Assembly: GCA_021792935.1 (NCBI GenBank)
Contig: JAJYTS010000004.1
Span: 1 to 36,859, forward strand
Direction: 5' to 3'
Origin: Bacillota bacterium
Lineage (GTDB): Bacteria > Bacillota > Sulfobacillia > Sulfobacillales > Sulfobacillaceae
DNA: 36,859 nucleotides
Below, in pieces: positions 2,091-24,767 of this stretch. A model generated the notes under the pieces. That model saw only the letters and a program-made list of their open reading frames with translations. It made no database searches and was not told the origin of the DNA. The translations under genes and the position numbers were made by a program. Position 1 is the first letter of the stretch, and every line of letters begins with the position of its first letter.

Positions 2091-2600
2091 TTAGTGTGCC
2101 AATCTCCTCCGCAAAAGCAACGCTGCCCCGATGCCGAGAACGGGGATGGCGGCGGTGAACGGGACTTCCGGGAGCTGGCCGTAAGGTAGCGGCTGCAACG
2201 GCACACTGTTGCCGACGGTTTGCGTGCCGATGGATTCTTGCGTCCCCTCAAGCACACGAAGCGCCGTGGCATCCGGGTTTACGGCGACCGCAACGCCCGC
2301 ATTGGCCACGTTGAATAAAATCGTTCCGACCTGCCCGTCGTACCACGGGTTGGGTGGCGATTGCGTGATGCGATATTCTTGTGCGACCTTCCACGTTCCC
2401 CCTACTTCGTCTTCAAATGTGACGTAGACCGTCTCGGTGGACGAGATTCCAGAGACCTTGACATTGACATAGCCGCCGCTGACGGGGCTGACATATTCGA
2501 TGGTCGGGTTAAATGTGGTGGCCGCAAACGCCGAGCCGCCCGCCAAGAGTAAACTAGCCGCTACCGCGCTCGACAGGCCGATCGTGACAAGTCCTTTCAT
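2091..2600 (-). CDS. Secreted protein with signal peptide and C-terminal membrane anchor, function unknown
   Basis: A 169-residue protein. The ATG at 2600-2598 is chosen because AAAGGAGG lies 7 bases upstream; the frame continues further upstream only through transposase debris. Residues 1-27 are a Sec signal peptide ending SAFA before ATT. The middle (about 30-135) is a beta-rich extracellular domain with VSPVSGGYVNVKVSGI and YVTFEDEVGG, of the Ig/fibronectin-like kind by appearance only. The end reads QLPEVPFTAAIPVLGIGAAL followed by LLRRRLAH: a short LP-containing motif, a hydrophobic segment, then a basic tail. That is the layout of a cell-wall sorting or tail-anchor signal, though LPEVP is not a standard LPxTG. 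A terminator follows. The gene appears monocistronic. Confidence 0.75.
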   Translation of the reverse strand: MKGLVTIGLSSAVAASLLLAGGSAFAATTFNPTIEYVSPVSGGYVNVKVSGISSTETVYVTFEDEVGGTWKVAQEYRITQSPPNPWYDGQVGTILFNVANAGVAVAVNPDATALRVLEGTQESIGTQTVGNSVPLQPLPYGQLPEVPFTAAIPVLGIGAALLLRRRLAH

Positions 2601-2761
2601 GCCGATCCTCCTTTGAATTTCCTGCGCGCAGGAAGGCCCAGTAACCTGAAAAATGTTCTTTAGCCCAAGTGTACGTCCGAGCCACCATGCGGTCAGTCTC
2701 GTTTCGCATCTCACCGTGGGCTCAAGATCGGATGCCGCGCCCAACCCGCGGCGTCCAGTAT

Positions 2762-3050
2762 CGTTGGAACCGGGCCCGACTCTTATATTGGTTCTTTTCC
2801 AGCGATACTCCTGAAGTCCGGCCAGAAAGGCCTTGGGATGGGATCCCGCCCGCGTCTTTTGGTAGTCATACAACACCACCGCGGGTCCCTCGCGGCCGAT
2901 TCGATACAGCCCCAGATAGGATTTCGCCTCCGGAGTCAGGCCGTCTTGCTGGAGGACTTGCACGGTCGTGCCATCCGCTTGCAAAATTATGCCGCCGTAG
3001 CTCCTGGATTCCTCACGGCCCACGGCGAGGATTGTGTCAGCGCTATCCAA
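2762..3050 (-). mobile_element. IS66-family transposase relic
   Basis: The minus-strand reading ILQADGTTVQVLQQDG...SYLGLYRIGREGPAVVLYDY then QKTRAGSHPKAFLAGLQEY matches the catalytic core of IS66 transposases (HADETPVQVL...YMWLYR...VVLYDYQPTRAGSHP..FL.GF.GYL). After LQEYRWKRTN the conserved DGYAGY...GCWAHARRKF stretch is missing and the reading becomes unrelated, so a frameshift or deletion destroyed the gene. No N-terminal half, partner orf or terminal repeats are visible. The frame runs on without a stop into the secreted-protein gene, so naive gene calling would fuse the two. Confidence 0.8.
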
Positions 3051-3302: not shown

Positions 3303-3319
3303 AATTCGAGGTGACTTGG

Positions 3320-3562
3320 GTGAAGTCCGTTAACATTCATGAGGCAAAAACCCACCTGTCGCGGCTTCTTGATGAAGTGAGTCGAGGCGAGGAAGTAACG
3401 ATTGCCAAGGCGGGCAAGCCCATTGCGCGGCTAGTTCCGGTATCGACCTCGCGGCCAACCCGTACACCGGGATTTTTACGTGGAAAGATCCGTTTTTCCG
3501 ATGATTTCGATGCGCCGTTGCCCGACGACGTGCAAAGGAGCTTTGAAGGGGCCGACGAGTGA
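3320..3562 (+). CDS. Phd/YefM-type antitoxin
   Basis: An 80-residue protein beginning VKSVNIHEAKTHLSRLLDEV followed by SRGEEVTIAKAGKPIARLVP, the standard N-terminal DNA-binding fold of the Phd/YefM (prevent-host-death) family. The C-terminal part (GKIRFSDDFDAPLPDDV) should be the toxin-neutralising region. The GTG at 3320 is preferred over the upstream in-frame GTG at 3311 because GAGGTG lies a proper distance before it and homologues start MKxVNIHEAK. The stop TGA overlaps the toxin's ATG (TGATG). It likely binds the inverted repeat at 3281-3302 and, with the toxin, represses the operon. Confidence 0.9.
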   Translation: MKSVNIHEAKTHLSRLLDEVSRGEEVTIAKAGKPIARLVPVSTSRPTRTPGFLRGKIRFSDDFDAPLPDDVQRSFEGADE

Positions 3563-3939
3563 TGCTGTTGCTCGATACGCATATCTACTTATGGTATCTG
3601 ATCGATTCGCCACGTATTACACGAGAGATTTCCGAGCAGATTTCGGAAGCCGACGTGGTTCTTGTGAGTGCGGCCTCCATTTGGGAAGCTGCCATCAAAA
3701 TCGGTCTAGGGAAACTAGATGCTAAGATTTCCGACCTCGTTAAGGGAATCGAGGCCAGCGGATTTTCGGAGCTGCCCGTGAGCGCCGCGGACGCGAGCCT
3801 GGTAGCGAGCCTACCGCCCATTCATACTGATCCGTTTGACCGGCTACTCGTTGCTCAAGCTCTGGCTGGCCCGTTTCGCCTACTCACCGCTGACGCGACC
3901 GTGGCCAGATACTCGGACGTGGTCCAGCTGGTGACGTAA
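3562..3939 (+). CDS. PIN-domain ribonuclease toxin (VapC-like)
   Basis: A 125-residue PIN-domain protein, the usual size for the family. It starts MLLLDTHIYLWYL (first catalytic Asp), then SAASIWEAAIK (Glu), then HTDPFDRLLVAQA (Asp) and LLTADATV (fourth acidic residue). All four metal-binding acids are therefore present, and activity as an Mg-dependent endoribonuclease acting on tRNA or other RNA is expected from the family. The start overlaps the antitoxin stop by one base, so the pair is translationally coupled. The pairing of Phd with PIN is common. It was probably acquired in the same accessory strip as the IS66 relic. Confidence 0.9.
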   Translation: MLLLDTHIYLWYLIDSPRITREISEQISEADVVLVSAASIWEAAIKIGLGKLDAKISDLVKGIEASGFSELPVSAADASLVASLPPIHTDPFDRLLVAQALAGPFRLLTADATVARYSDVVQLVT

Positions 3940-10401: not shown

Positions 10402-10875
10402 CTACACGTCGGCGGGAGCCGATGGGTTTTTGGTGGTGAGTCCCCCGATGGCACCGACGATAAGGCCCATGATAACCCCTACGCCGGCACTGGCGGCCCA
10501 GGATGCGATGTGGGCGGCTGGCGAATTGGCGGCTTTGAGCAGCGTGCCAATGGCAAGGGTGGGATTGACGTGCCGAGCGTGCAGACTTGCGAGCAATTGC
10601 GCCCGCGTCAGATGAATTAATAGCGATGGCCATCCAGAAACGATACCGTAGATAAGGCCCGCGATGGCGCCTACGCCGACCGGCCGCGCGCCCTGCTGCT
10701 TGGCGGCGCGACCTGCGAATAATAGAATCCCCAGCACGATCACATCTAATATAATGGACACGACGATGGGCATGCCCACGCGGTGGCCGCCGATAAGAAA
10801 CTTGATGAGGGCAGCGATGACACCCCAGACTAAGGTGATGAGATAGATGCGGTTGACTTTTGTCACGATTTTCAT
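10402..10875 (-). CDS. Small four-helix membrane protein upstream of the ABC exporter
   Basis: A 157-residue protein with four hydrophobic segments (IYLITLVWGVIAALIKFLIG, VVSIILDVIVLGILLFAG, VGAIAGLIYGIVSGWPSLLI, ASAGVGVIMGLIVGAIGGL) and almost no soluble part except a loop HLTRAQLLASLHARHVNP. No family is recognised. Glycine-rich helices suggest an oligomer or accessory subunit. AGAGG abuts the ATG at 10875, so GTG 10866, nine bases further in, may be the true start. Only 8 bp separate it from the MacB-like gene, so the products probably act together. Transcription would begin at the minus-strand promoter at 10992-11020. Confidence 0.7.
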   Translation of the reverse strand: MKIVTKVNRIYLITLVWGVIAALIKFLIGGHRVGMPIVVSIILDVIVLGILLFAGRAAKQQGARPVGVGAIAGLIYGIVSGWPSLLIHLTRAQLLASLHARHVNPTLAIGTLLKAANSPAAHIASWAASAGVGVIMGLIVGAIGGLTTKNPSAPADV

Positions 10876-17762: not shown

Positions 17763-17805
17763 TCTTGGGAGTTGGTTGAAGCACGCGATAAGTTGGGGAG
17801 AGAGA

Positions 17806-19380
17806 ATGGCACAGGCACTTTTAGAGGAAATTCAAAGACGGCGCACCTTCGCGATTATTTCGCATCCAGATGCGGGAAAGACCACTTTGACGGAAAAATT
17901 GCTGCTGTTTGGCGGCGCGATCCGCGAGGCCGGGGCCGTCAAGGCGCGCCGCGCACAGCAACATGCTCGCTCCGACTGGATGGAGATCGAGCGGCAGAGG
18001 GGCATCTCGGTAACCTCCACCGTTTTGCAGTATGACTACCAGGGCTATCGGGTCAATTTGCTGGATACGCCGGGACACCAGGACTTCAGCGAAGACACCT
18101 ATCGCACGTTGCTGGCTGCCGACAGTGTGGTCATGGTGCTGGATGGTGCCAAAGGCGTGGAGGATCAGACGGTTAAACTCTATCAGGTGGCTAGGCGGCG
18201 CCAGATCCCCGTCTTTACCTTTGTCAACAAGCTGGACCGGGAGACCCGTGATCCCTGGGAGATTCTCGAGGAGATTGAGCGGATTTTAGGGATCTCCACC
18301 TTTGCCATGAATTGGCCGGTTGGCATGGGCTTAGGGTTTCAGGGTCTTTATGATAGGCGGGCCGGTGTTTTTGAAGCGTTTAAGCGTCAAAGCCGGGAAT
18401 TTGCCCGAGTTCCCCTGGATGCGGCAGGCCTCGACCTTCACGAAAGCGCCCGGCTTGCTCAAGATTTAGAGTTGCTGGACGGGGCGGGGGAGCCTTTCAA
18501 TGAAGAAAAAGTGGCGTCTGGACAGCTAACCCCGGTTTATTTCGGGAGCGCTATGGCCAACTTTGGCGTGGCCACCTTTTTTGACGGGTTTTTGTCGATG
18601 GCTCCGGCGCCTCGCCCTCGCGTCTCAACGGAGGGTCCGGTAGACCCCGAGTCGGATTACTTTTCTGCCTTCGTGTTTAAAATCCAGGCCAATATGAATC
18701 CCGCGCACCGTGACCGTGTGGCATTCTTGCGTGTTTGCTCCGGGCGCTTTTCCCGAAATATGACGGTGACGCATTGTGAAAGCGGCCGCAGCATCCGGCT
18801 GGCCCAACCTCAGCAATTTTTAGCGCAGGATCGCTCGATAGTGGAAGAAGCCTACCCCGGCGATGTTCTCGGCATTCACGACTCCGGCTTGTTGGTGATT
18901 GGGGATGCCTTAAGTGAGAAAAGCGGCGTACGTTTTGTGGGATTTCCCCGCTTTTCGCCCGAGCATTTCGCCGAACTGGAACTCAAACATACCTTAAAGC
19001 ATAAACAGTATCAGCGCGGTTTGGACGAGCTGGTGCAAGAAGGAGTTTTGCAGCGCTTTCACGCCGACGATTTAGGCCCCCACATTTATTTGGGAGTCGT
19101 GGGGCCTCTGCAGTTTGAGGTTTTAAGCTATCGGCTGCTGCACGAATACGGAGTCGACGTTTCGGTGCGCATGCTTCCCTACACGTTGGCGCGCTGGGTG
19201 TTGGAAGGTCCGGAGCGGTTTGAGTTCGGACGGTTTGACCGTGTACGGCTAGTGGCGGACGATGCGGGACGGCGGGTGCTTTTGCTGGAGGACACGCGCA
19301 CGTTAGACCGATTGCGAGAAAAGTATCCGGAGTTAACGGTGGCGGAAAGCTCACCCGTTCGCGATCTGGGGGATGATTAG
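17806..19380 (+). CDS. prfC: Peptide chain release factor 3 (RF3 GTPase)
   Basis: A 524-residue translational GTPase that recycles RF1/RF2 from the ribosome after termination. G1 is SHPDAGKTT (19-27), G2 RGISVT (65-70), G3 DTPGH (87-91), G4 NKLD (141-144) and G5 near FGSAMAN. The C-terminal region has [20 protein letters not shown] and [19 protein letters not shown], both RF3 hallmarks that separate it from EF-G. ATG 17806 is chosen because GGGGAGAG precedes it. It is the first gene of a co-directional run of five with gaps of 27-45 bp. Confidence 0.95.
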
Positions 19381-19410
19381 CCAAAACGCGTCGCGAAAGG
19401 ATGTGGGTTG

Positions 19411-20364
19411 ATGCAATATCGTCGGTTGGGCGGCGCCGGCATTGAAGTGTCCGCCATTGGCCTGGGAAGCTGGCTAACCTACGGGACCGTGACTGAGGAG
19501 CGAGTCGCGGAAGCTTGCGTTCATCGGGCCTGGGACGCGGGAATTAATCACTTTGACTGTGCCAACATGTACGGTAGCGAACCGCATGAGGCTGAACGCT
19601 TTTTATCCCGGGTTTTAAAAGGGTTTGCCCGTGATGAATATGTGCTGACTACCAAGGCATTTTGGCCAGTGGGCGACAAGCCCAATCAGCGCGGACTATC
19701 CCGCAAACACTTATTTCATCAAGTGGACGTCAGTTTAAAGGCCTTGAACACGGATTATGTCGATATTTTTTATTGCCACCGGGCCGATCCGAATGTGGAA
19801 ATCGAGGAAACCCTACGCGCTATCGATGATCTAGTGTGTCAGGGCAAGATTCTCTATGGCGGCATCAGCCAGTGGCAGCCCGCGCAAATTGGAGAGGCGC
19901 TCCTCACGCAAGAACGGTTTCATCTTCATCCCTTGCGTGCCAGTCAGCCTCGCTACAATTTACTGGACCGCACCATGGAGTCGGGGGTTTTGCCCCTGTG
20001 CGAGGCGGCGGGAATGGGACTGGTGGTTTTTTCGCCTCTGGCCCAAGGTCTTTTAACGGGTAAGTATCATAGAGGTGAGGCGGCTCCAATGGGATCCCGC
20101 GCCAGTGAGAGGCGGGTCAACACCAGCATCAAGCGGTTTTTGACGGAGAGCAATATTGAGCGGGTGGAATCGCTGGCGGCTTTGGCGCGCGATTTAGGAA
20201 TCAGTTTGGCCCAGCTGGCTCTGGCCTGGGTATTGCGCCAACCCGCCATTTCCAGTGCCCTCATTGGCGCGTCTCACCCTGACCAAATTACGGAAAATGT
20301 CGCGGCCCTCGATGTAGTGCTGGATGAAGAGATCCTCACGCGCATCGAAGCAATTGTGGCATAG
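19411..20364 (+). CDS. Aldo/keto reductase
   Basis: A 317-residue NADPH-dependent oxidoreductase of the AKR superfamily, close in style to YhdN and the K+-channel beta-subunit branch. MQYRRLGGAGIEVSAIGLGS is the typical start. The catalytic tetrad is Asp49 and Tyr54 (HFDCANMYG), Lys82 (TTKAF) and His123 (YCHRADP). The cofactor part has FSPLAQGLLTGKY and ALIGASHPDQITEN. The substrate cannot be told; such enzymes detoxify carbonyls such as methylglyoxal. ATG 19411 is used; the AAAGGATG site lies upstream. Likely co-transcribed with prfC. Confidence 0.93.
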   Translation: MQYRRLGGAGIEVSAIGLGSWLTYGTVTEERVAEACVHRAWDAGINHFDCANMYGSEPHEAERFLSRVLKGFARDEYVLTTKAFWPVGDKPNQRGLSRKHLFHQVDVSLKALNTDYVDIFYCHRADPNVEIEETLRAIDDLVCQGKILYGGISQWQPAQIGEALLTQERFHLHPLRASQPRYNLLDRTMESGVLPLCEAAGMGLVVFSPLAQGLLTGKYHRGEAAPMGSRASERRVNTSIKRFLTESNIERVESLAALARDLGISLAQLALAWVLRQPAISSALIGASHPDQITENVAALDVVLDEEILTRIEAIVA

Positions 20365-20409: not shown

Positions 20410-21195
20410 ATGAATTGGCGGGCCTGGATCCGATGGCCGGGAATATCGTCATCGGATCCTTCATTTTTGCGGTACGTAGATTGCGTGCCCACTTGGCGCC
20501 TCATGGCGGCCACGGTCGGGGGCGGTGTTTTGGTGTTGCTGGTGGGCCGGGCGGCCCACTCTCCGACCATCGGATATGGCTACGGCGGTCTCTTCTTTGT
20601 GTTCGGTTCGTGGCCACTGATGCGGGTGGTGGGCCGTGCGTCGGTATGGACCGACGCCACCGTCTGGCAAACGATTTTGCTGGTCATCGCCAGTGTGGCT
20701 ATGGGCCATTTAGGCAGCCGGATTTTGGGGTTTAACCCGCAGGCAGGCCGCATCCACTCGCTTGGTTGGGCGCAGGGAAAACGCCTGTTGTGGGGGTTTC
20801 CCCTGCTGCTTCCCGTGGAAAACCTCATTTTATTGGGCGGCTTAGTGGCGCTGTGGCAGGCGATAAAGCCGCGTACAGCATTAGACCGCGTGCTGGTGGC
20901 CATTGCCGCCGCCTTTGTGTTTGGATTTTGGCATGTGCCGGTTTGGGGATTTTGGACGATGCCGGTCATTGGGATGACCGTGCTTCCCTGGTCGCTCTAT
21001 CTCTTGGCCACCGGCGATATGTTGGTTCCGGTGTTGGCGCACATTGCCATGGATGCTCTGGCGGTGATAGGAGCCCTGGCTCCAAAAGAGTCGCTCTGGC
21101 GGCATTTGGGAGATCCTATTCTGCTGCTGGCTCTCTTTGTTGGTGGGCTGATGTTGTCTCTATATCGGGAGTGGTTTAACGGATCACGGAGGTGA
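20410..21195 (+). CDS. CPBP-like intramembrane protease homologue
   Basis: A 261-residue protein with about 7-8 membrane segments. LLPVENLILLGGLVALWQ resembles the EExxxR motif of CPBP (Abi) proteases but has EN instead of EE and lacks the Arg. FGFWHVPVWG supplies the FxxxH motif, and VLAHIAMDALAVIG the third motif (HxxxD instead of HxxxN). The metal-binding Glu and both His are therefore present in a changed setting. It may be a divergent active protease or a lipid-modifying relative; an unrelated lycopene-cyclase-like membrane fold is the alternative. GGCGAGG precedes the ATG. It lies 45 bp behind the aldo/keto reductase. Confidence 0.6.
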   Translation: MNWRAWIRWPGISSSDPSFLRYVDCVPTWRLMAATVGGGVLVLLVGRAAHSPTIGYGYGGLFFVFGSWPLMRVVGRASVWTDATVWQTILLVIASVAMGHLGSRILGFNPQAGRIHSLGWAQGKRLLWGFPLLLPVENLILLGGLVALWQAIKPRTALDRVLVAIAAAFVFGFWHVPVWGFWTMPVIGMTVLPWSLYLLATGDMLVPVLAHIAMDALAVIGALAPKESLWRHLGDPILLLALFVGGLMLSLYREWFNGSRR

Positions 21196-21239
21196 TTAGG
21201 CCGCGACTTCAGTTATGATGGAGCCAGGGGGGATGTGGA

Positions 21240-23132
21240 ATGGACGCGGTTTGGCCGGTTTCCGTCAAAGGGGTGCTGGTCCGTCATGATCAGGTGCTAT
21301 TGCTTTTAAACGAGCGAAATCAATGGGAGCTGCCGGGAGGCCATGTCGTTGCCGGGGAAAGTCCGCCAGAGGCCTTGATGCGCGAATTTCAGGAGGAAAC
21401 GGGTTGGTTGGTTCGTCCCCAAGGGTCTCTAGGGGCGGATTTTTTTACACCGGTGGCGGGGGGACCTTCGGTGCTGCTCGTGTTCTATATGGTGGAAGCC
21501 CGCCAGCGGAATGGGGAGGTCATCATTTCTTCCGAACATACCGATCTTAGCTGGGCGCCCCTCAATGCACTGCCGGAAAACCTTCCGTCCGTCTACCAAA
21601 AAGCGATTGCTCGCGCGCAAAGCCATCTGTGGGGAGAGGTGCTGCATCACTTGGGCGCGCGCTTGGGGGCGGACCAGGGAAGGCGCATGAGTCGTCTCCA
21701 CACGGAACTTGGCGTGGCACCGAAACTGGGAGTTCCGCAGGTGGGGACGGTGAGTTTGCATGCCGGCCCTGCCGCAAAAAGCGGCATTCGCCAGTTGCAC
21801 GAGGAATTTTTAAGCGGGCGCCGGAGTCCGGTCGAGTGGGTGGAGGAGCGAATCGCGCGGGCCAGGGCCTGGCAGGCGCGCACCCCAATCTTCATTCAGA
21901 TTCGGGCCGCGGAGGCTTTAGCGGCGGCGCGGGAGTCGGAACAGCGGTATCGGAGCGGACGTCCTTTGTCTGTGATGGATGGCGTGCTGGTGGGAATTAA
22001 AGACTTGATTGATGTGAGCGGGCAGGGCACCAGCGCCGGGTCGGCGGTGCGGTCATCTGACCCCGCAGCAACGGATGCCGATCTGGTGGTTAGGCTGCGT
22101 CAATCGGGGATTAATATGGAACTCGGCAAATTAAATCTGCATGAGTTCGCCTATGGTCCGACCGGGGATAGTTCATACTTTGGGGCGACCGCCAACCCTC
22201 ACAATCTGAGCCGGATGGCGGGAGGATCCAGCAGCGGATCGGGTGCCGTGGTGGCAAGTGGGGTGGCGCCGGTGGCTTTGGGAACCGATACCGGGGGCTC
22301 GGTGCGAATTCCATCGGCGTTCACCGGCATCTCGGGATTGAAACCCACCTATGGGCGGATATCGCTCGAGGGGATTGTGCCACTTTCCTGGTCCTTGGAT
22401 CATGTGGGGCCCATGGCACGAACCGTGGCCGACGCGCGGGAGTTGTGGCGGGCCATGGGCGGGGAGATAGCCGCTTGCGGCGCCCCTAGCGCTCCTAGAG
22501 TATTTTGGCCTGATGACGTTCAAACCCACTGTTACGATGCCGGGTTGCAAGAATACGTGGAAGCGGCTATTGCCACTTTGCTGGCGGGAATTGGGGCAAA
22601 GGTGGAGCGCGGTCCTCTTTTCAATTTAGAGCCGGTCCGCCTGGCTCAGTCCATCATTATCGGTTCTGAGGCATTAGCGTATCATTGGGAGACTCTCGAT
22701 GAGGCACCGGAGCGATACCAGCCGGATGTGTCAGAGCGACTGGGGAAGGGGGGTGCCCACTTGGCGGCGGAGTATATTGCCGCCATGCGATACCGGCAAG
22801 CGGAAGCGGCGCGCTGGGATGCCTGGCTCGCCCGCTTTGATACCATCATTCTGCCCACGGTGCCGATAGTGGCCCCGTCGTTATACACCAAGACTATTCG
22901 CTCCCCGGCCGGTGTTGAGGAAGATGTGCGCGGGGTGGTGACCCGCTTAACCGCTCCTTTTAATTTTTTGGGTCTGCCGGCTCTCTCCATCCCCTGGGGT
23001 CTCTATCAAGGACTCCCGGTCGGATTGCAATTAGTGGGACGGCGGGGTTTTGACGACCTCATCCTGGCCATTGGCGAAGAGATTCAAGCGCGGTTTCCTG
23101 AGTCGGTGCCTCCTATAGTGGCGCTCGCATAA
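21240..23132 (+). CDS. Nudix hydrolase fused to an amidase-signature enzyme
   Basis: A 630-residue two-domain protein. Residues 1-135 are a Nudix hydrolase with a perfect Nudix box (G34-x5-E40-x7-R48-E49-F-Q-E52-E53-T-G55-W56). Residues 136-180 link it to a GatA-like amidase (about 180-625). Amidase signatures are VGIKDLIDVSGQGT (catalytic Lys254), MAGGSSSGSGAVVASG (cis-Ser near 331) and ALGTDTGGSVRIPSAF (nucleophile Ser354), so the Ser-cisSer-Lys triad is complete. The end FNFLGLPALSIPWGLYQGLP is also standard. Both halves look intact and share one GGGGGATG site at ATG 21240. The Nudix part should hydrolyse a nucleoside-diphosphate-linked compound and the amidase an amide. It is flanked by membrane proteins in a co-directional run. 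The substrate is unknown. Confidence 0.92.
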   Translation: MDAVWPVSVKGVLVRHDQVLLLLNERNQWELPGGHVVAGESPPEALMREFQEETGWLVRPQGSLGADFFTPVAGGPSVLLVFYMVEARQRNGEVIISSEHTDLSWAPLNALPENLPSVYQKAIARAQSHLWGEVLHHLGARLGADQGRRMSRLHTELGVAPKLGVPQVGTVSLHAGPAAKSGIRQLHEEFLSGRRSPVEWVEERIARARAWQARTPIFIQIRAAEALAAARESEQRYRSGRPLSVMDGVLVGIKDLIDVSGQGTSAGSAVRSSDPAATDADLVVRLRQSGINMELGKLNLHEFAYGPTGDSSYFGATANPHNLSRMAGGSSSGSGAVVASGVAPVALGTDTGGSVRIPSAFTGISGLKPTYGRISLEGIVPLSWSLDHVGPMARTVADARELWRAMGGEIAACGAPSAPRVFWPDDVQTHCYDAGLQEYVEAAIATLLAGIGAKVERGPLFNLEPVRLAQSIIIGSEALAYHWETLDEAPERYQPDVSERLGKGGAHLAAEYIAAMRYRQAEAARWDAWLARFDTIILPTVPIVAPSLYTKTIRSPAGVEEDVRGVVTRLTAPFNFLGLPALSIPWGLYQGLPVGLQLVGRRGFDDLILAIGEEIQARFPESVPPIVALA

Positions 23133-23160: not shown

Positions 23161-24288
23161 ATGATGCGATGGTCAAAATGGCCCTGGGAAGTCTTGGAAA
23201 CCTGGGGTCTGAGCTTTCAAGTGGTAAAGACCGCGCTGGCGGCAGGACTGTCATGGGGCATCGCGGAATGGGTCATAGGAACCCCCAAACCATATTTTGC
23301 CCCTTTGGCCGCTATTTTGTCTGTTCAAGCGACCATTGCCGAATCGTTGTCGCGGGGAGTGCAGCGCATCCTGGGTGTGGTGGGCGGCATTGTGCTGGCC
23401 ATGTTGTTGGCGCACTGGGTGGGGCTGAATTCCTGGTCGCTGGCTGTTTTAGTGTTTGTAGGAATGGGGCTGGCTACCCGGGTCCATTTGGGCCCGCAAG
23501 GCATCCCGCAGGTGGCGATTAGCGGACTGCTGGTAATGGCTCTGGGCTCCGCCGTTCCGGGCTATGCCTGGTATCGGCTGTTGGAAACCGTTTTGGGAGC
23601 TTTGGTGGCGCTCGCGGTGTCATTAGCGATTTGGCCGCCCGATTTAACCCCGCAAGCCATGAAAAGCCTGTCGCTACTGGCGCTAGGCTTGAGTGATCTG
23701 TTGCAAAAAATGCAAGTCGATCTCGCTTCCCAGCCCCTGGTCCATGAGGCTCATGATCACTTGCGCCGGGCGCGGGGTGTGGCCGCGGCTCTGGAGAAGG
23801 CGCGAAGCGCTATGAATCGGGCGGAATTAAGCGTGCGCTGGAACCCCTGGCATCAAGGCGCGCGCATTCGTCTCAAGCGGCTGAAGCAGGCGGTCAACGT
23901 GCTCGAGCATGTGCTCATACAAATCCGAGGGATTAGCCGCACTCTTTTCGTCAGCGAAGGAGAGAAAGGCGGTCCGCCGGCGGATGTTGTTCCCGCAGCC
24001 CTGGCCCAGGGGATCGGAGATGTGCTGGCGCTGATGGGAAGCGGTCTGCGGCTCTACGCGGCACTAATTGATCAAGGCGATGAAGCCGCTGCCTTACGCT
24101 TGGAGAATGCCTTGCGCCAAGCTGTGTATATGCGCGGGCAGATTTGGCGGGACGCGATGAGTTCTCTCAGCGAGAGGGCCTCCGCGTTTATCGGGGTGGC
24201 GTCGGTGCTGGTAGATCTAGAAAAAATGAGCCAGGATCTGAGTGTCAGTTCCCGGCTTTTGGTTCCTTTAGTGCGGGTAAGGCGCTAG
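23161..24288 (+). CDS. FUSC/aromatic acid exporter family membrane protein
   Basis: A 375-residue protein. Residues 15-165 carry about six membrane segments, with KTALAAGLSWGIAEWVIG then YFAPLAAILSVQATIAESLS and GVQRILGVVGGIVLAMLLAH as in the ArAE/FUSC family (DUF939 type). Residues 170-375 are a cytoplasmic helical domain likely to form coiled coils (DHLRRARGVAAALEKARSAM). Relatives are proposed exporters of aromatic acids. Following the Nudix::amidase by 28 bp, it may export that enzyme's product (inference). ATG 23161 or 23164 could be the start; no strong site is seen. The stop TAG is shared as CTAG with the convergent pyrophosphatase gene. Confidence 0.8.
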   Translation: MMRWSKWPWEVLETWGLSFQVVKTALAAGLSWGIAEWVIGTPKPYFAPLAAILSVQATIAESLSRGVQRILGVVGGIVLAMLLAHWVGLNSWSLAVLVFVGMGLATRVHLGPQGIPQVAISGLLVMALGSAVPGYAWYRLLETVLGALVALAVSLAIWPPDLTPQAMKSLSLLALGLSDLLQKMQVDLASQPLVHEAHDHLRRARGVAAALEKARSAMNRAELSVRWNPWHQGARIRLKRLKQAVNVLEHVLIQIRGISRTLFVSEGEKGGPPADVVPAALAQGIGDVLALMGSGLRLYAALIDQGDEAAALRLENALRQAVYMRGQIWRDAMSSLSERASAFIGVASVLVDLEKMSQDLSVSSRLLVPLVRVRR

Positions 24289-24767
24289 TGGTTGTCTTGA
24301 TAGCGGCGGCGCGATTCCTCCAGCACTTTTAAGGCCTCGGCTTCGCCCTTCCATCCGCCAATGGTGACTTCTTTATTCTCTAATTGCTTATAGGTTTGGA
24401 AGAAATGGGGGATTTCCCGCAAAACATGAGGGTTGACCGCTTCCAGCGATGTCACATGGGCGAATCGGGGGTCGTCGGCGGCCACTCCCAAAAGCTTGGT
24501 GTCCACGCCCTTGTCGTCTGTCATCTCCAGCATGCCTAAAAGCCGGGTGCTGATGACGCATCCGGGAAACGTGGGAAAACTGGTCAATACCAACACATCA
24601 ATGGGATCGTCGTCTTCTCCCAACGTTTGTTCCACAAATCCGTATTCGGCAGGATAGTGCATGGGGGAGAACAGCACCCGGTCCAGGCGTACCCGGCCAG
24701 TCTCGTGATCCACTTCATATTTGTTTTGGCTGCCTTGCGGTATTTCTATCACAACATCGACCTTCAA
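24285..24767 (-). CDS. ppa: Inorganic pyrophosphatase (family I)
   Basis: A 160-residue soluble enzyme hydrolysing pyrophosphate to phosphate, pulling biosynthetic reactions forward. VVIEIPQGSQNKYEVD (5-20) and the signature DDDPIDVLVL (52-61) with the metal-binding Asp residues are clear, as are FSPMHYPAEYGFVEQTLGED and the lysine-rich C-terminus. Length fits bacterial family I. The start is TTG 24767, with GAGGAGG nine bases upstream; no ATG competes. The last 4 bp (CTAG) overlap the FUSC-like gene's stop on the other strand. Confidence 0.95.
   Translation of the reverse strand: MKVDVVIEIPQGSQNKYEVDHETGRVRLDRVLFSPMHYPAEYGFVEQTLGEDDDPIDVLVLTSFPTFPGCVISTRLLGMLEMTDDKGVDTKLLGVAADDPRFAHVTSLEAVNPHVLREIPHFFQTYKQLENKEVTIGGWKGEAEALKVLEESRRRYQDNH

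Follow-up and report, generated by a model that had tools for sequence, protein, structure and literature searches.

A Nudix-amidase fusion protein of probable single origin in one lineage of the Sulfobacillaceae

A single open reading frame in a Sulfobacillaceae genome encodes a Nudix hydrolase domain followed by an amidase-signature domain, each with its catalytic motifs complete. Taken together, the conservation, gene context and phylogeny suggest that the protein is probably a lineage-specific fusion of single origin with two independent hydrolase sites: an amidase, which would be the core enzyme; and a Nudix domain, which would be accessory to it. Where an enzyme has no assigned substrate, a gene fusion offers a strong clue to its function; here, an orphan Nudix hydrolase is tied to an orphan amidase, narrowing the substrate screen for both. 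The intermediates are present within one conserved cluster (the amidase by itself, two overlapping genes, and the fusion), making this a clear example of how a coupled gene pair becomes one protein.

Architecture and authenticity of the fused protein

The window, i.e. the entire 36,859-nucleotide stretch of DNA analyzed (contig JAJYTS010000004.1), carries the fused gene on the forward strand at positions 21240-23132. The reading frame begins with ATG, encodes 630 residues without an internal stop, and is preceded by a Shine-Dalgarno-like AGGGGGG (21226..21232) located 7 nt 5' of the start codon. Residues 11-123 (21270..21608) match the Pfam NUDIX family (PF00293; E 8.5e-15; 55.4 bits against a cut-off of 21.1) and are followed by a C-terminal tail of the Nudix half (residues 126-165; 21615..21734), a variable junction linker (residues 166-180; 21735..21779) and the amidase-signature domain (residues 181-630; 21780..23129). 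Within the latter, residues 199-609 match Pfam Amidase (PF01425; E 6.3e-87; 292.9 bits against a cut-off of 27). The initial annotation had described two domains in one frame with complete catalytic motifs, and the intact Nudix box and Lys/Ser/Ser triad of the 630-residue frame bear this out. An AlphaFold2 model of the window protein, calculated from the single sequence, has a mean pLDDT of 37, too low to be informative. Consensus scans for promoters and terminators gave matches near the chance level.

The fusion protein is genuine and inherited. Three independently assembled genomes from this genus (G001, G003 and G007) encode full-length, in-frame homologues with no stops, at 53-54% identity across residues 2-629. 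These homologues exclude both a frameshift and a misassembly at residues 150-180, the region where, according to the initial annotation, a stop or frameshift on resequencing would have counted against the fusion. The genome of the window is a fragmented assembly, 60% complete, which is the kind of material in which two genes might be joined by a sequencing or assembly artefact. The in-frame fusion is nonetheless found in the three other assemblies, and it is very unlikely that four assemblies at such divergence would carry an identical error. An artefact was accordingly rejected, and its probability can be treated as negligible.

Catalytic motifs of the two halves

The Nudix box of the window protein (residues 34-56; 21339..21407), GHVVAGESPPEALMREFQEETGWL, fits the consensus GX5EX7REUXEEXGU. 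In an alignment of 10 sequences, G34, E40, R48, E49 and E52 are invariant, as is an SxEHxxxxW motif past the box (residues 97-105; 21528..21554), and E53 is retained in nine. The exception is the fused protein of G003, in which the box reads REWREKTG; here, the replacement of E53 by lysine changes a metal-binding glutamate and takes the sequence outside the Nudix box consensus. A complete box is also a feature of the MutT-like Nudix hydrolases (PF00293), which include the nearest solved structures, 3id9 and 3fk9, both of which lack an assigned substrate. The window protein differs from these hydrolases in its fusion to an amidase and in its additional C-terminal tail.

None of the substrate-specific NCBIfam models was reached by the Nudix half. 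The NAD(+) diphosphatase equivalog scored 15.2 against a cut-off of 158 (E 0.011), and the MutT (8-oxo-dGTP) equivalog scored 36.4 against 148. The earlier suggestion of NAD-type or CoA-type substrates therefore gains no specific support, as the match to NAD diphosphatase is so distant and the nearest structures are MutT-like proteins without assignment. A scan of the genome's contigs returned only two weak Nudix-type matches.

The amidase half contains the Lys-cisSer-Ser triad: the catalytic K254 (21999..22001); the cis-serine S330 (22227..22229); and the nucleophile S354 (22299..22301), which lies in the sequence GTDTGGS. All three are invariant in 13 aligned sequences, and their assignment follows the established residue spacing of the amidase-signature family. 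The complete triad, the GGSS(G/S)GS motif and the full-length domain match are as expected of that family (PF01425), and the N-terminal Nudix domain distinguishes the window protein from its other members. The nearest solved sequences are 2dc0, deposited as a 'probable amidase', followed by 6c62, a biuret hydrolase.

Assignment to a subfamily is not supported by the profile scores, which reach the cut-off of none of the NCBIfam amidase subfamilies shown. Among these, the AtzE models scored 281-285 against cut-offs of 426-461, the indoleacetamide hydrolase model scored 266.5 against 532, and the gatA equivalog scored 235.1 bits against 481.1, or about half. There was also no gatB or gatC among the scanned neighbours of the fusion. 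The description of this half as 'GatA-like' thus holds at the level of the family; identity with GatA itself was rejected on the equivalog score and the gene context.

A conserved gene cluster

The fused gene occupies a defined place in a conserved cluster. Upstream, on the same strand, are prfC, encoding release factor 3 (17776..19380), an aldo/keto reductase (19408..20364) and an Rce1/CPBP-like membrane protein (20410..21195), the last of these ending 44 nt before the fusion. Downstream, separated by 28 nt, is an aromatic-acid-exporter/FUSC-type membrane protein (23161..24288), which is followed by a convergent inorganic pyrophosphatase on the reverse strand (24285..24767). The gaps from prfC through the exporter-type gene, taken from the ORF coordinates, measure 27-45 nt and are consistent with a single transcript. 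Across the family, the order is kept with small changes: acnA / prfC - aldo/keto reductase - CPBP - [Nudix] amidase - ArAE/FUSC exporter type - pyrophosphatase - MFS - DUF445 - BrkB.

The exporter-type gene adjoins the amidase in nearly all of the family genomes read. In other genera, these two genes occur together without this Nudix, which indicates that the amidase is the old core of the arrangement and the Nudix its later partner. A close Nudix (E<=1e-12) adjoins the amidase in only two settings among 34 family genomes: the genus of the window (8/8); and Sulfobacillus acidophilus NAL-T (G011). One further Nudix match, in G016, is located elsewhere in the genome and has stops within the matched stretch. 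Within the family, then, this Nudix clade lies directly upstream of, or is fused to, this amidase, which supports the functional link that had been proposed. Separate genes in unrelated surroundings would have argued against such a link; the opposite was found, i.e. separate genes in the same context.

The slot taken by the Nudix has a different occupant in other genera, where a divergent MaoC/FAS1-dehydratase-like pair on the other strand lies between CPBP and the amidase (L031 10116-10978, L032 and L049-L052). A simple replacement of this MaoC-type pair by the Nudix is not claimed, as relatives of the pair occur elsewhere in the genus of the window.

Origin of the fusion

Within the genus of the window, the Nudix and amidase of G004, G002 and G006 are encoded by neighbouring genes that overlap at ATGA, in the order seen in the fusion. 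Outside this genus, S. acidophilus NAL-T has the same two families, order and neighbours, again as separate, overlapping genes, so that two polypeptides there correspond to one in the window. In each of these four split amidases, a GGAGG-type ribosome-binding site lies in the 3' end of the Nudix gene, just before the amidase ATG. In contrast, the fused gene of G001 has no in-frame start codon within 45 codons 5' of the amidase, so that translation there probably yields the fused protein alone. In the window, an in-frame GTG (V171; 21750..21752) with AGGTG upstream is a possible, unproven internal start, from which a shorter second product might arise. In a further genome, G005, the Nudix gene adjoins the amidase and is frameshifted around residues 61-70, reflecting either a biological change or an assembly error, with both flanking parts recognizable. 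This frameshifted gene is at locus L029, upstream of position 10406.

The two segments that join the domains have distinct histories. The tail (residues 126-165) occurs in the fused forms and in the genus's split Nudix genes alike, and thus predates the fusion; no such tail was seen in the stand-alone Nudix from G494. The linker (residues 166-180) is not conserved, with 4% identity to its relatives, and varies in length as well. G494 carries the nearest Nudix from outside the family, in two copies (L076 and L077). By Pfam, the neighbour of the copy at L076 is a MOSC/YiiM-type gene, and a similar gene takes the same place at L077, a possible Nudix-MOSC pairing. Relatives of the Nudix on one Streptomyces and one Priestia plasmid had no adjoining amidase-signature gene.

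In the amidase tree, the four fused sequences form one clade (SH-aLRT/UFBoot 99/98). A context-gene tree, built on six neighbouring genes with uneven coverage, contains a branch that parts the four fused genomes from all others (100/92). In a tree of the Nudix domain alone, fused and split forms are not resolved from one another. As the fused copies form one clade, a single fusion event is most likely. The split arrangement is likely ancestral, given that it is found both in S. acidophilus NAL-T, outside the genus, and within the genus, and one fusion suffices to explain the distribution. The most likely starting point of this fusion is a pair of translationally coupled genes, with the rest of the cluster left as it was. 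The fusion would then have come about once within the genus, through loss of the ATGA stop/start overlap between the Nudix and amidase genes.

Since that event, the amidase halves of the four fused species have diverged to 56-59% identity. Both genes of the split pair are under purifying selection, with dN/dS values of 0.13 for the Nudix and about 0.10 for the amidase; these come from the split copies of G002 and G006, the sequences of the fused clade being too divergent for dN/dS.

Functional implications

If both are active, the two sites would probably be independent. The amidase, as the ancient core, would convert a small amide to an acid and ammonia by the Lys-cisSer-Ser mechanism. The acid product may be removed by the neighbouring exporter-type protein, a role suggested by gene order and family name. 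The Nudix domain, as a later accessory, would cleave a pyrophosphate-linked compound; candidates would be the metabolite acted on by the amidase, in a nucleotide-linked form, or some toxic nucleotide to which the cell is exposed in the same circumstances. Fusion would fix the two halves at a 1:1 ratio and in one location. The Nudix appears to have been gained later, to have been useful enough for fusion, and to have been kept in most but not all species. Judging from the altered sequences in G003 and G005, Nudix catalysis may not be needed in every species.

The initial annotation had proposed a closer coupling, in which the two domains perform consecutive steps on one nucleotide-linked amide. 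Such coupling would involve cleavage of a nucleoside-diphosphate-linked or CoA-type amide by the Nudix domain and deamination of the product by the amidase, with channelling between the two. The completeness of both motifs in the window is in keeping with this, as is the fact that this Nudix clade is strictly paired with the amidase and later fused to it. However, other genera keep the amidase alone, and no nucleotide-amide pathway genes were recognized in the conserved context. The Nudix site is damaged in one fused relative (E53K in G003) and one split relative (the frameshift in G005), evidence against an obligatory pair of steps on a single substrate. Coupling of this kind is unlikely. It is improbable that the protein is a new bifunctional enzyme, with Nudix and amidase acting on one nucleotide-linked amide and the neighbouring transporter exporting the acid; if true, acidophilic Sulfobacillus-type bacteria would possess a route for salvage or detoxification that has not been described before.

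At the other extreme, two co-expressed housekeeping hydrolases may have been joined without functional coupling. A small indel can fuse a pair of genes that overlap at ATGA, and the linker varies freely in both sequence and length. Yet the fusion persists in four species despite the divergence of their amidase halves, and within the family this Nudix clade is confined to its place with the amidase, making a neutral joining conceivable but doubtful. Another possibility would be that catalysis is being lost from the Nudix half, which would come to act as a sensor or stabilizing domain by binding a nucleotide or the amidase itself. In G003, E53 is replaced with the remaining box residues kept, and the tail behaves as a docking element would, being present in split and fused forms and absent from the stand-alone relative. 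Non-enzymatic Nudix domains, moreover, usually occur within multidomain proteins (PMC5389931). Against this proposal, the box glutamates are complete in the window, G001 and G007, and the box region has a mean identity of 0.63 as compared to 0.49 for the whole Nudix domain; loss of catalysis is a rather remote prospect. The reading that best accommodates these observations is probably that of two independent sites, with the amidase as the core.

Relation to known Nudix fusions

The domain combination is new, and both families are known. No published Nudix-amidase enzyme was found in the literature searched, in agreement with the initial annotation, which knew of no described enzyme of this architecture; a survey of the Nudix clan makes no mention of amidases. 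A search of 398 genomes from the phylum at E<=1e-60 yielded no other Nudix-amidase fusion, other phyla being thinly sampled. Plasmids yielded none either; the single long match looked at there, from Azospirillum, carries an annotation as two amidases. Fusions of Nudix domains to other metabolic enzymes are already known. In NadM-Nudix proteins (PRK05379 models), a Nudix domain is joined to an adenylyltransferase. In the Tnr3/Nudix thiamin fusions, the partner is a thiamin enzyme (PMC4921024). These proteins and the window protein all combine a Nudix domain with a metabolic enzyme; the partner here is an amidase.

Other features of the window

Three further features lie near the start of the window. 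The first ORF (12-1556) opens with an apparent intein C-terminal end (...GLVVHN/C) that leads into a ribonucleotide reductase (Ribonuc_red_lgC, TSCPD); the contig starts at this ORF, so that an intein, if present, would be truncated. On the minus strand, the ORF at 2091-3050 has only a partial match to an IS66-type transposase and is probably a remnant. At 3311-3939, a Phd/YefM antitoxin gene is followed by an overlapping PIN-domain gene, together forming a type II toxin-antitoxin pair.
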